Assembly: GCF_030817655.1 (NCBI RefSeq)
Contig: NZ_JAUSZM010000003.1
Span: 1,550,001-1,614,000 of the forward strand
Source: Streptomyces sp. V4I2
GTDB taxonomy: Bacteria; Actinomycetota; Actinomycetes; Streptomycetales; Streptomycetaceae
Length of the DNA: 64,000 nucleotides
Reading direction: 5' to 3'
The stretch's first letter is position 1. Each line of letters begins with the position of its first letter. A model generated the notes under the pieces. The model ran no database searches, was not told where the DNA came from, and saw only the letters and a list, made by a program, of their open reading frames with translations. Position numbers and translations under genes: made by a program. Positions 7,815-19,515 of this stretch are shown piece by piece.

Positions 7815-9617
7815 TCATTTTGTCGGCTCCAGTCGGGCGTCCTGGTGGACGAGCGCCGCGTACCGCCCGCCCCCCTCCAACAGCTCCTCGTGCGTCCCCT
7901 GTTCGGCCACGCGTCCGGCGTCCAGGACCACGATCTGGTCGGCACCCCGGATGGTGGACAGCCGGTGCGCGATGGTGAGCGTGGTCCGGTTGGCGGAGAG
8001 CGCGTCGATGGCCTCCTGGACGGCGTGTTCGGTGCGGGTGTCCAGGGCGCTGGTCGCCTCGTCGAGGATCAGCACCGGCGGGTCGCGCAGGATCGTGCGG
8101 GCGATCGCCAGCCGCTGCTTCTCGCCGCCGGAGAAACGGTGGCCACGCTCGCCGACGACCGTGTCGTAGCCGTCGGGCAGGGACGCGATGTGGTCGTGGA
8201 TCTGGGCCGCCTTCGCCGCCTGCCGGATCTCCTCGTCGGTGGCGTCCGGCTTGGCGAAGCGCAGGTTCTCCGCGATCGTTGCGTGGAAGAGGTACGTCTC
8301 CTGCGAGACGACGCCGACCGCGCGGGCGAGGGTGTCGAAGTCGAGGTCGCGGACATCGACCCCGTCGAGGGTGACCCGCCCGCCCGTCACGTCGTACAGC
8401 CGCGGCACGAGATGGCCGAGGGTGGACTTGCCGGCGCCGGTCGGTCCGACGACGGCGAGGCTGCCGCCCGCGGGGACGGCGACGTCGATCCTGTCGAGGA
8501 CGGGGCGGCTCTTGTCGTCGTACCGGAACTCGACGTCCTCGAAACGCACCTCACCCTTGATGCGGTCCAGATGTACCGGCCGCTCGGGTTCGGTGATGTC
8601 TATCGGCAGGTCGAGGTACTCGAAGATGCGCTGGAAGAGCGCCAGCGAGGTCTGGATCTGGACGCCGGTCGACAGCAGGCTCACGGCCGGGCGGAACAGG
8701 CCCTGCTGGAGCGAGACGAAGGCGACGATGGTGCCGATGGAGATCTGGGTGCCGCCCGTCGCGAGGGCGAGGCCCGCGGTCCAGTAGATGACGGCGGGCA
8801 TGGCGGCCATGACGATCGAGATGACGGCCATGCGCCAGCGGCCGGCCATGTTCGACCGGACCTCGAGGTCGACCAGTTGCTCGGACTCGTCGGAGAAGGA
8901 GCGGGTGAGCGAGTCGGAGCGGCCCATCGTGCGGCCGAGCAGGATGCCGCTCACCGACAGCGACTCGGTGACGGTCGCGGCCATCACGGCCATCTGCTTC
9001 TGGCGCTGGGTGGTGATCTTCTTGCGCTCGTTGCCGACCCGGCGGCTGATCCACACGAAGACCGGCAGCAGGAGCAGGGAGACGACGGTCAGGCGCCAGT
9101 CGAGGGCGATCATCGCGATGATCGTGGCGACCACGCTGGTCAGGTTGGAGACCAGGGAGGTGGCGGTCGAGGTGACGGTGGCCTGCATGCCGCCGATGTC
9201 GTTGGCGATGCGGGACTGGACCTCGCCGGTGCGGGTGCGGGTGAAGAAGGCGAGGGACATGCGCTGCAGGCGGCCGTAGACGGCCGTGCGCAGGTCGTGC
9301 ATGACGCGCTGGCCGACCGTGGTGGAGATCAGGGTCTGCAGCACGCCGAAGATGCTGGTGAGGACGGCGCTGAGGATCATGCCGAGCGCGAGCAGGCTCA
9401 GCAGTCCGGTGCGGCCCTCGGGGATGGCGACGTCCAGCGTCTCCTTCAGCAGGAACGGGGTCGCCACGGTGACCAACGACGAGGCGCCGACCAGCAGGCC
9501 GACGACCGTGAGCCGGCCGCGGTAGGGCTTGAACAGCTTGAGGATGCGGCGCACCTGCCGGGGTTCGTCGGTCGAGGTGCCGGAAGAGGGGGTCCACTTG
9601 ATGTCGTCGCGGGGCAT
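7815..9617 (-). CDS. ABC exporter, fused transmembrane and ATPase domains
   Basis: A 600-residue half-transporter that acts as a homodimer or with a partner. Six TM helices lie in about residues 35-330, and the nucleotide-binding domain follows with Walker A GPTGAGKST, Q-loop SQETYLF, signature FSGGEKQRLAIAR, Walker B LILDEATSALD and H-loop IAHRLST. All catalytic residues are intact. Multidrug or lipid export is the usual role. It is divergent from a MarR gene, with a strong palindrome between them, so MarR-type repression of this exporter is the natural reading. Confidence 0.9.
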   Translation of the reverse strand: MPRDDIKWTPSSGTSTDEPRQVRRILKLFKPYRGRLTVVGLLVGASSLVTVATPFLLKETLDVAIPEGRTGLLSLLALGMILSAVLTSIFGVLQTLISTTVGQRVMHDLRTAVYGRLQRMSLAFFTRTRTGEVQSRIANDIGGMQATVTSTATSLVSNLTSVVATIIAMIALDWRLTVVSLLLLPVFVWISRRVGNERKKITTQRQKQMAVMAATVTESLSVSGILLGRTMGRSDSLTRSFSDESEQLVDLEVRSNMAGRWRMAVISIVMAAMPAVIYWTAGLALATGGTQISIGTIVAFVSLQQGLFRPAVSLLSTGVQIQTSLALFQRIFEYLDLPIDITEPERPVHLDRIKGEVRFEDVEFRYDDKSRPVLDRIDVAVPAGGSLAVVGPTGAGKSTLGHLVPRLYDVTGGRVTLDGVDVRDLDFDTLARAVGVVSQETYLFHATIAENLRFAKPDATDEEIRQAAKAAQIHDHIASLPDGYDTVVGERGHRFSGGEKQRLAIARTILRDPPVLILDEATSALDTRTEHAVQEAIDALSANRTTLTIAHRLSTIRGADQIVVLDAGRVAEQGTHEELLEGGGRYAALVHQDARLEPTK

Positions 9618-18190: not shown

Positions 18191-18442
18191 ATGCAGCAGG
18201 ACAAGCACCCCGACTACCACGAGGTCGTCTTCCGTGACCGCGCCGCCGGCTACGCCTTCCTGACCCGGTCCACCGCGAGCAGCGACCAGACCATCGAGTG
18301 GGACGACGGCAAGACCTACCCCGTGGTGGACGTGGAGATCTCCTCGGAGAGCCACCCCTTCTACACCGGCAAGGCACGGACGGTGGACACGGAGGGCCGC
18401 ATCGCCCAGTTCGAGCGGCGCTACGGCGGCGGGGCGGGCTGA
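18191..18442 (+). CDS. rpmE2: 50S ribosomal protein L31 type B (zinc-independent)
   Basis: An 83-residue ribosomal protein. It has the type-B sequence ([16 protein letters not shown]..., [18 protein letters not shown]) and lacks the four Cys of the zinc-binding L31. In actinobacteria such Cys-minus paralogues replace the zinc form under zinc starvation and are usually Zur-repressed. AGAAGGAG lies 6 nt before the ATG. No Zur-like palindrome is obvious in the 63 bp upstream, so control may act ahead of the DUF5709 gene. Confidence 0.93.
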
Positions 18443-18491
18443 GAGCGCACCGGGCTGGGCCGGCCGGTCGTGTGCGGGCGCGAGGCCGGTC

Positions 18492-18619
18492 GGCTGCGGT
18501 GCCGACGGGATTCGAATCCGCGGACGAGAGGGGCAGGCCCGCCCGGTCTCGTCAGTCGGCATGAGAGAGGCCTCGCTCACGCCGATCGCAATGGGCCGCT
18601 CTGCCACGGCTCCGCAACC
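18492..18619 (-). other. Class II tRNA-like structure or pseudo-tRNA with an extended anticodon arm
   Basis: Read on the minus strand: GGAGCCG pairs with CGGCACC at the ends (6 of 7 pairs), GCA/TGC form a D-stem around GAGCGGCCCAT, a long variable-type arm is closed by ACGAGA/TCTCGT, and a T-arm carries TTCGAAT. The position of the anticodon arm is a 10-bp stem (TCGGCGTGAG with CTCATGCCGA) closed by a 10-nt loop rather than a 7-nt loop, and the T-stem has one A-C mismatch. The outer helix extends beyond the acceptor to 13 bp. No CCA is encoded. It is either a decayed tRNA or a tRNA-like RNA; a normal decoding tRNA is unlikely. Confidence 0.42.
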
Positions 18620-18702
18620 TGCGGGAACTGCGCAGTCCCGCTCCGGCAAGGGTAGAGACAGCGCCCCGCGCAGGGCGAGCCCTTTGTCCGGAGGGCCGGC
18701 GC

Positions 18703-19515
18703 TCAGATGAAGTTGAGTGCCGCCGCGCAGCCCACTCCCCCGAGCAGCATGAACGCCGGCATCAACACCTTCAGCTCGACCCAGCTGCCGGCCCGGAACC
18801 GCATGAACTTCGGCGGGCCGATCGGGTACCAGCGCTTGCGGCCCACCGGGATCGGCCACAGGACCGGGCAGCCGGAGACGGTCAGCGCGTCCCCGATGTC
18901 GTGCACCAGCGCGCCCAGCACGATCGGCAGCCCCAGCCACAGGTACTCCTGGCCCGGCGCCGTGAACAGCCAGTCCGAGCCGTTGCCCGGCTTGTCCAGG
19001 ACACCGGCGAGGATCCACGAGCTGGTCGCGGCCAGCAGCCAGACCAGGACATCGGCACTGGAGCCACGGGTCGCCCGCCACAGCAGGCCCTCGATGGCCA
19101 GCACCATGTGCACGAACAGGAGCGCCAGCACCGCCCAGCGCCCGCCGGTGATCGCCGCGACCGAGCCGCCCGCGCCGATCAGGACGGCCCACAGCCAGGT
19201 GTGCGTGAGCGTGCGGTGCCCGCCGGAGCGACGCGGGTCGCCCTGCTTCTTCGTGGCCTTGTAGACCGCGTAGGAGAGCTTGTCGACGATCTCGCACAGC
19301 CCGCGGGAGATCGGCCCGAAGGCCCGCGAGATGGTGGCGGCCTTGTGGTCGAGGTCCGGGGCGAGCGCCGCGCCGGCGCAGATCAGGGCTCCGACCAGGA
19401 GGACCGGCCAGGGCATGGTGTGTCCCGCCGCGGCGGCAGCCGCGCCGACGCCGAGCCAGGCCGCGGCCCCCGACAGTGAGTGTGCTGGTCCCATCATGGC
19501 CGCTGCCCGCCCCAT
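18703..19515 (-). CDS. YdjM-like membrane-bound metal-dependent hydrolase (DUF457)
   Basis: A 270-residue integral membrane protein. The metal-binding signature of the family is present: DLDHK early (about residue 54) and GGHRTLTHTW (about 98), with VHDIGDALT later. Six to seven hydrophobic helices follow. Family members are putative membrane hydrolases of unknown substrate; YdjM of E. coli is SOS-induced. The start could be the first ATG at 19515 or Met7/Met8 within the same N-terminus (MGRAAAMMGPAH). It is divergent from the helicase gene. Confidence 0.85.
   Translation of the reverse strand: MGRAAAMMGPAHSLSGAAAWLGVGAAAAAAGHTMPWPVLLVGALICAGAALAPDLDHKAATISRAFGPISRGLCEIVDKLSYAVYKATKKQGDPRRSGGHRTLTHTWLWAVLIGAGGSVAAITGGRWAVLALLFVHMVLAIEGLLWRATRGSSADVLVWLLAATSSWILAGVLDKPGNGSDWLFTAPGQEYLWLGLPIVLGALVHDIGDALTVSGCPVLWPIPVGRKRWYPIGPPKFMRFRAGSWVELKVLMPAFMLLGGVGCAAALNFI

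Follow-up and report, generated by a model that had tools for sequence, protein, structure and literature searches.

The question raised by this locus is whether the tRNA-like element on the minus strand of the window (the whole stretch of 64,000 nucleotides of Streptomyces DNA that was analysed) is a tRNA, what is left of one, or an RNA with a role of its own. The first-pass annotation had proposed a class II tRNA-like plan at 18492-18619, which it read as a decayed tRNA, a former integration site or a tRNA-like regulatory RNA. The last of these options is the one favoured here, as far as a tRNA-like RNA is concerned, regulation being a possible role. Taken as a whole, the element is best explained, with slightly better than even confidence, as a non-coding RNA derived from tRNA-Ser that would mimic a tRNA towards a protein.

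The class II plan is recovered in the fold of the window's copy, where acceptor, D, long variable and T arms are all present, and the reported anticodon helix of 10 bp with its 10-nt loop is also found. The elements are as follows, the counts of conserved bases and of pairs with changes on both sides being those of the homologues described below:

18607..18619, minus strand: 5' strand of the 13-bp outer (acceptor) helix; both-side changes in 7 of 13 pairs, 97.8% of cells paired
18588..18604, minus strand: D arm with a GCA/TGC stem and the loop GAGCGGCCCAT; G15, G18 and G19 in 68/68 sequences, A14 in 67/68
18556..18585, minus strand: 10-bp anticodon arm with the 10-nt loop CGAGGCCTCT; both-side changes in 7 of 10 pairs
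18568..18573, minus strand: AGGCCU, anticodon-loop half of the putative kissing interaction (loop-loop complementarity and covariation)
18523..18553, minus strand: two-part variable arm; both-side changes in 5 of 6 pairs of the outer part and 4 of 6 of the inner part
18535..18540, minus strand: GGGCCU, variable-loop half of the putative kissing interaction (loop-loop complementarity and covariation)
18505..18521, minus strand: T arm with the loop UUCGAAU and an A53-C61 mismatch of its own; T54, T55, C56 and A59 in 68/68
18492..18504, minus strand: 3' strand of the 13-bp outer (acceptor) helix; covariation as for the 5' strand
18621..18641, minus strand: 5' leader hairpin GCGGGA...TCCCGC; both-side changes in 5 of 6 pairs

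The minimum-energy fold of this copy reaches -65.8 kcal/mol (z = -2.69), which 4 of 200 shuffles equalled or bettered. Its outer helix has the 13 positions attributed to it, of which 12 are paired, with one A-A mismatch and one U-G. The T arm reads GCGGA-UUCGAAU-CCCGU, and the A-C mismatch previously pointed out in its stem belongs to this copy and is not typical of the family, as G is found there in 66 of the 68 distinct homologues. The interval 18492-18619 describes the tRNA-like body, but the gene reaches at least 18642 with the 5' hairpin, and 18654 when a -10-like box is included. When four copies were folded as single sequences (z from -1.4 to -2.8), the window's own and that of locus L003 adopted the tRNA-like plan, L003 scarcely better than its shuffles (z = -1.36, 18/200), and L002 and L004 were rearranged.

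The tRNA finder and Rfam miss, misname or partly match such RNAs. The expectation that gene finders would overlook the element holds for the window's copy: ARAGORN made zero tRNA calls across the window, Rfam returned nothing at its gathering threshold in the window, and a search of 18400-18750 at E<=10 gave no tRNA hit and three sub-threshold hits, all to unrelated families. It fails for some homologues, as ARAGORN, in scans of loci other than L009-L012 and L074-L111, calls the copy of genome G030 a tRNA-Asn, and 3 of the 8 homologous loci scanned pass the Rfam tRNA model (RF00005, >29 bits) at 30-36 bits, with the window's copy below.

A covariance model built from seven copies and run on 392 sampled Streptomyces genomes gave 41 matches that score 82 bits or more, spread over 37 of them; one match (G194) covers part of the model. 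A second type of RNA with the same plan appears at 58-73 bits in seven further Streptomyces genomes; the eight matches in this range are its seven full-length members and one fragment (L058). Another 19 matches score 54 bits or less, and ARAGORN calls a tRNA at 11 of the 12 of these that were fetched; the weaker matches, among those fetched, are mostly ordinary tRNA-Ser genes. Counting both types, an intact-looking copy is present in 43 of the 392 genomes (11%). By DNA similarity, near-full-length copies were seen in 3 of 60 relatives, and a fourth (G004) gave two short DNA pieces that later turned out to be a second-type member (L057). Four plasmid records carry copies, one of them at the same place as in G019. 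An exact D-arm pattern occurs in 38 stretches among 84,980 species genomes, all of Streptomycetaceae (34 Streptomyces, 2 Actinacidiphila, 1 Embleya and 1 Kitasatospora). In a class-wide search of 394 genomes with the model, those of the matches listed that score at least 100 bits all belong to Streptomyces; with strict filters, the listed matches of other genera stay at 61 bits or less, a score range in which second-type RNA (58-73 bits) could hide, and the seven that were fetched are ordinary tRNA-Ser(CGA). An origin in phages or viruses was rejected, with 0 matches in phage records at E<=1e-5 and 0 viral contigs with the exact D-arm pattern.

The second-type loci L054, L056, L057, L059, L060 and L061 have flanking gene families in common and appear to be fixed in place; by eye, L057 lies near a TetR-like gene. 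The family is apparently undescribed, as no such RNA was found described among the matches listed (titles and abstract starts) in the open PubMed Central literature. At L009 (~8001-8161; NZ_CP108555.1, ~74.4 kb), the locus-tag series skips OG457_RS48445 at the RNA, and the original record may hold an RNA feature there.

With regard to selection on the structure, the main-type alignment comprises 79 rows, or 68 distinct sequences once identical rows are merged, and leaves out L049 and L051, which lie at contig ends, L053 and L058, which are fragments, the second-type loci L054-L057 and L059-L061, and L181. In this alignment, which was fitted to the stem model in a way that favours stem counts and in which related rows count separately, 96.8% of the 3299 cells of 49 stem pairs are standard pairs; when the stem partners are slid by 1-3 columns, 37-53% of cells pair. 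Changes on both sides affect 29 of the 49 pairs, against a shuffled mean of 11.7, and 186 cells, against 37.1, neither value being reached in any of 500 shuffles. Loss of the stems among relatives had been named as what would speak against the element; the stems are kept, with compensatory changes in six of seven helices across the 68 distinct sequences. The outermost 6 pairs of the 13-bp outer helix, which would be leader and trailer in a tRNA, covary as well (35 both-side cells, in 4 of 6 pairs). In the D stem, covariation is confined to a single pair, seen in two rows that are related, and the T stem is too uniform to reveal any. In the copy of S. caniferus (L011), the outer helix is broken. 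Judged by these alignments, the RNA almost certainly represents a conserved family.

A further, probable contact emerges between two loops. Over 6 nt, the anticodon loop, in most rows AGGUCC or AGGCCC, can pair with the loop of the variable arm, in most rows GGACCU or GGGCCU, and these pairs are absent from the search model. Across the alignment, 399 of 408 such cells are paired, against 379.5 (sd 2.3) when the loops are re-dealt among the rows, with 0 of 10,000 re-dealings as high; six positions are paired in 60 rows, five in 7 and four in 1. Both-side changes occur in 5 of the 6 pairs (28 cells, against 2.9 in shuffles, 0/500 as high), with loop pairs such as GUGCCU/GGGCAC, AGACUC/GGGUCU, AGGGCC/GGCCUU and GGGUCC/GGACCC, and slid partners pair in 30-72% of cells. 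The signal persists after thinning to below 90% identity (193 of 198 cells paired, 178.3 in shuffles, 0/5000) and below 85% (18 rows; 103 of 108, 93.1 in shuffles, 0/5000); below 80% the six rows left make a weak test (35 of 36 cells, reached by 82 of 5000 shuffles). Matching complementarity was also seen by eye in the second type, for instance AGGUUC/GAACCU in L056. The two loops thus very probably kiss, which would close off the 'anticodon' in a loop-loop contact, and a contact within one molecule is a simpler reading than one between two. The kissing pairs and the model's G-U pair that closes the variable loop are mutually exclusive. In a divergent copy, L052 (2001-2153), a 15-base repeat, inverted about two central bases, makes up the anticodon arm, and full pairing of this arm would compete with the kissing contact (GGGUCC/GGACCC).

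The same loop could instead belong to an antisense small RNA, its GAGG-rich letters pairing with an mRNA or with the anti-Shine-Dalgarno sequence. The loop GAGGUCC is indeed Shine-Dalgarno-like in many copies, but its letters change together with those of the variable loop, which fits internal pairing better than a fixed target, and this explanation is considered quite unlikely.

The relation to tRNA is apparent in the tertiary core. T8, G15, G18, G19, C48, T54, T55 and C56 are found in 68/68 sequences and A14 in 67/68, so that the contacts of an elongator tRNA core (T8-A14, G15-C48, and G18/G19 with the UUC of the T loop) are all provided for. Conservation of the D arm is built into the 38 loci picked by the D-arm pattern; the 41 other rows agree, with G15, G18 and G19 in 41/41 and A14 in 40/41. 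Streptomyces tRNA-Ser genes (CGA/UGA) align with the RNA over the acceptor, D loop and T arm and share the long variable arm of class II, and descent from tRNA-Ser is likely. The tRNA-Ser differs in its 7-bp outer helix (13 in the RNA) and its 5-bp anticodon stem (10 in the RNA), and the RNA has, unlike tRNA-Ser, an anticodon loop complementary to the variable loop and a 5' hairpin of its own.

These differences bear on translation. Where an elongator tRNA has a 5-bp anticodon stem and a 7-nt loop with a free anticodon, the RNA has 10 bp and a complementary loop; where it has a 7-bp acceptor stem and a free 3' CCA, the RNA has a 13-bp helix whose extra 6 bp covary, and no CCA is encoded directly after position 73. 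Neither charging nor decoding would be expected, because the 13-bp acceptor helix is closed, the anticodon arm has 10 bp and its loop is locked, and the RNA is probably neither charged nor used in decoding. It might nonetheless become a real tRNA once RNase P and 3' trimming have removed the extra 6 bp, to serve as a seryl isoacceptor or a specialised seryl donor. The likeness to tRNA-Ser, the G at position 73, the class II variable arm and the intact core would suit such a tRNA, as would the 3 of 8 loci above the Rfam tRNA cut-off and the tRNA-Asn call; the covariation of the would-be leader and trailer (35 both-side cells, 4 of 6 pairs), the 10-bp anticodon stem and the complementarity of its loop to the variable loop speak against it. 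Pairing in the outer helix would on its own be compatible with RNase P processing, and a processed tRNA is regarded as improbable. A role outside translation is preferred, and a sizeable RNA family, present in about a tenth of the sampled Streptomyces genomes, would then reuse the tRNA fold, probably outside translation. In the covariation that would lock the anticodon loop to the variable arm lies a clear, mutable hypothesis of how a tRNA can be taken out of translation.

Lengthened acceptor branches are known from other tRNAs with a long variable arm, namely tRNA-Sec and the allo-tRNAs. As described in the cited sources, the 13 bp of the acceptor domain of tRNA-Sec, with anticodon stems of 5-6 bp (PMC7609411), and the 12 bp of allo-tRNAs (PMC7590224) count acceptor and T stems together. 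The RNA resembles both in its lengthened branch and differs from those descriptions in that its 13 bp do not include the 5-bp T stem, its anticodon stem has 10 bp and its loop is locked; among the descriptions of tRNA-Sec in PMC7609411, no 10-bp anticodon stem was found.

Upstream of the body, the order is a promoter-like TAnnnT box, the covarying 5' hairpin and the tRNA-like body, and the features in the window are the following:

18673..18687, minus strand: conserved block at the -35 region, ACAAAGGGCTCGCCC, in the family roughly ATAAnGGnTCGnCC (upstream alignments, by eye)
18649..18654, minus strand: -10-like box TACCCT; TAnnnT in 64/67 distinct main-type copies
18642, minus strand: predicted RNA 5' end (A), deduced from its distance to the -10-like box; all main-type rows covering the position have A

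The box in those 64 copies, out of 67 with sufficient upstream sequence, has its end 6-8 nt ahead of the base predicted to be the first; elsewhere upstream, TAnnnT is found at 0.2% of positions. The box is missing in L011, L047 and L111. The block around ATAAnGGnTCGnCC recurs, by eye, in both main clades. Because the box and the -35-region block are conserved, we infer that the RNA is transcribed from its own promoter, with a predicted transcript of about 155 nt. A common terminator was rejected (mean z of the 3' flank -0.56, with 12 of 67 below -1.5); by eye, some copies have strong 3' hairpins.

The promoter-like box and the compensatory changes in six of seven helices contradict the earlier suggestion of a decayed tRNA, which the covariation in stems and in kissing pairs also led us to reject. 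The A-A mismatch in the outer helix and the A-C mismatch in the T stem of the window's copy are what a decaying tRNA pseudogene or a former integration site would show; with the helices covarying, the box in place and the tRNA core kept over 68 sequences, either origin is very unlikely for the family. The window's copy, taken alone, could still be non-functional.

The RNA is flanked in the window by two genes:

18191..18442, plus strand: ribosomal protein L31 gene (PF01197, 91.3 bits), presumably type B
18703..19515, minus strand: YdjM-type membrane protein gene (PF04307, 64.2 bits), directly upstream of the RNA and on the same strand

The DNA search and the covariance model alike find one match in this genome. 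Among the junctions of 17 loci in relatives, located via the YdjM gene, L31 lies within 900 bases of it in 6; 10 lack L31 there, and the remaining locus (L164) stops at a contig end. In five of the six (G003, G007, G009, G013 and G016), the distance from the YdjM gene to the last aligned L31 codon is 39-156 nt, against 267 in the window, and these genomes have no match to the covariance model. In the sixth (L162), a larger gap is occupied by other DNA. The junction being short and free of the RNA in five relatives, the RNA unit was therefore either gained in the window's genome or lost in the relatives. The locus L091 is syntenic with that of the window.

With regard to function, action as a tRNA mimic or protein decoy is put forward tentatively, with somewhat less than even confidence. 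The RNA would fold as an L-shaped tRNA mimic with both acceptor end and anticodon shut, and would serve as decoy or scaffold to some protein that recognises the elbow of tRNAs or the arms of class II; an anticodon nuclease, RNase P, SerRS or a tRNA-modifying enzyme might be such a protein. This is proposed because the elbow is preserved, which would allow recognition by a tRNA binder, while the features for charging and decoding are shut. Should the RNA be a decoy, it would point to an unknown tRNA-directed activity in Streptomyces. A precedent for a tRNA-like RNA with such a non-translation role is the pseudo-tRNA tRNA-Other of Bacillus cereus, described with a Trp anticodon and a role outside translation (PMC3399842); going by this description, the RNA is set apart by an anticodon loop that is not free and by its partial mobility.

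Candidate partners were sought in 32 of the 37 strongly positive genomes and in 28 negatives, that is, genomes without a DNA match. A second SerRS is found in 6 of 32 positive genomes (one below the cut-off) and 3 of 28 negative ones, and was rejected as a partner. Clustering of 375 flanking ORFs, which were predicted with a simple G+C rule from flanks that in many loci measure just 1.5-2 kb, revealed no gene that keeps to one position beside the main type. Some of the ORF groups present in at least 3 loci stem from the second type or from syntenic pairs (the window and L091) and the rest lie at scattered distances, so that a fixed neighbour gene was also rejected as a partner.

A bacterial Y RNA of the YrlA type, bound by a Ro60 orthologue, has a long closed end helix and a tRNA-like module, a layout that the RNA shares. 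Rfam gives no Y RNA hit, however, the window's genome has no TROVE/Ro60 match, and TROVE matches, which cover a piece of about 60 residues, occur in 21 of 32 positive and 19 of 28 negative genomes; presence of TROVE being unlinked to the RNA, this candidate was rejected and is the least probable of all. YrlA is described as containing a tRNA-like domain (PMC7790460), in which the two are alike; the RNA differs from YrlA in its lack of TROVE/Ro60 dependence and of an Rfam match, and in its dispersed contexts rather than an rsr operon.

The copies lie mostly in unrelated neighbourhoods, and the family appears to spread in part by transposition. Of 2263 pairwise similarities, 132 have their start at -120 to -90 and just 8 begin farther away; an end at +220 to +250 is seen in 126, and one beyond it in 3. 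All others are shorter. At these edges lie 22-bp inverted repeats, GG(C/T)TCTGGC(A/T)CAACTTCTGTGG. Scored at 22 positions (at least 19 at each end for two-ended units, at least 17 for one-ended), both repeats are present in 15 of 76 loci, one in 7 and neither in 54, a count that includes L107 and L089, each truncated at one end. Random windows drawn from the loci, 3200 in number, included none at 16-18, and the 60 at 19-22 are explained by the repeats of those same loci. The unit that bears the RNA measures 313-322 bp, with no room for a transposase, in the manner of a non-autonomous ISL3-type transposon. Target duplications of 8 bp are a trait of the ISL3 family; the 8-mers that flank the 15 two-ended units match at all 8 positions in 5 units, at 7 in one, at 6 in two, and at no more than 3 in the other seven. 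The repeat core is present in 18 of the 27 genomes searched. In 7 genomes it forms pairs spaced by about 117 bp; those read lack the RNA, and in one case they stand in tandem. G015 has a pair with a spacing of about 2.2 kb, and the 533-aa protein encoded between its two repeats has DDE_Tnp_ISL3 (91.6 bits against a cut-off of 23) and Zn_ribbon_ISL3 domains.

Part of the family is thus very likely carried in a MITE-like unit. The ISL3-family IS of G015 is a candidate mover, as the ends are ISL3-like and an ISL3 transposase lies between like repeats, so that such an enzyme could move part of the family; the movement itself is inferred. Inverted repeats, 8-bp duplications and this transposase are shared with ISL3-family IS and MITEs; what sets the unit apart is the lack of a transposase and its cargo, a structured RNA gene. 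The window's copy is devoid of the repeats (scores of 11 and 12 of 22, background level), and the 19-base repeat core has no match in its genome at up to 2 mismatches. The idea of a former integration site finds no support here, the RNA unit being extra in the window relative to five relatives and elsewhere itself transposon-like cargo.

It may be asked whether the RNA chiefly serves its transposon, SINE-like in its tRNA origin and moved by a DNA transposase, by stabilising, regulating or insulating the unit, in which case the copies without ends would be stranded relics. The units of 313-322 bp with both repeats (15 of 76 loci, one repeat in 7), the exact 8-bp duplications in 5 of 15 and the ISL3 transposase between similar repeats in G015 are in keeping with this; yet such ends are missing from 46 main-type rows out of 68, that of the window included, and the same 68 keep fold and promoter; there are, moreover, short relatives of the unit that lack the RNA. 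In a tree, a branch (98/94) separates a side of 43 rows from the one with the window's copy, and all 15 two-ended and 6 of the 7 one-ended copies belong to the former, the exceptional one-ended row having a single weak repeat; the tree is built from short sequences, with most inner branches weak, and copies with and without ends are mixed within the 43-row side. This distribution fits a later capture of the RNA, but also a loss of ends. Service to the transposon is therefore judged unlikely as the main role, and tRNA mimicry is still preferred. Slightly less doubtful is an element that would be to bacteria what tRNA-derived SINEs are elsewhere: a serine tRNA turned into an RNA that no longer decodes, has a promoter of its own and locks itself by a kiss between anticodon loop and variable arm would be the sole cargo of a DNA-transposon MITE, and would travel as a decoy for some protein that targets tRNAs, for instance an anticodon nuclease.

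Further details of these elements were observed at single loci. The ISL3-family IS of G015 (L145, 969-2570; about 2.2 kb) has inverted repeats of 60 bases, which are 78% complementary, and contains other ORFs as well. In G342 (L146; contig C2, 141400-142600), RNA-less short units of ISL3 type stand in tandem with a period of about 150 bp, joined by the 8-mer CGTTCTCA. Just outside the unit, beside the target duplication, TGWACAAAGCCA or a near variant occurs at unrelated sites (L106 and L153, and with 1-2 changes L032, L146 and L150), and its recurrence suggests a preferred target.
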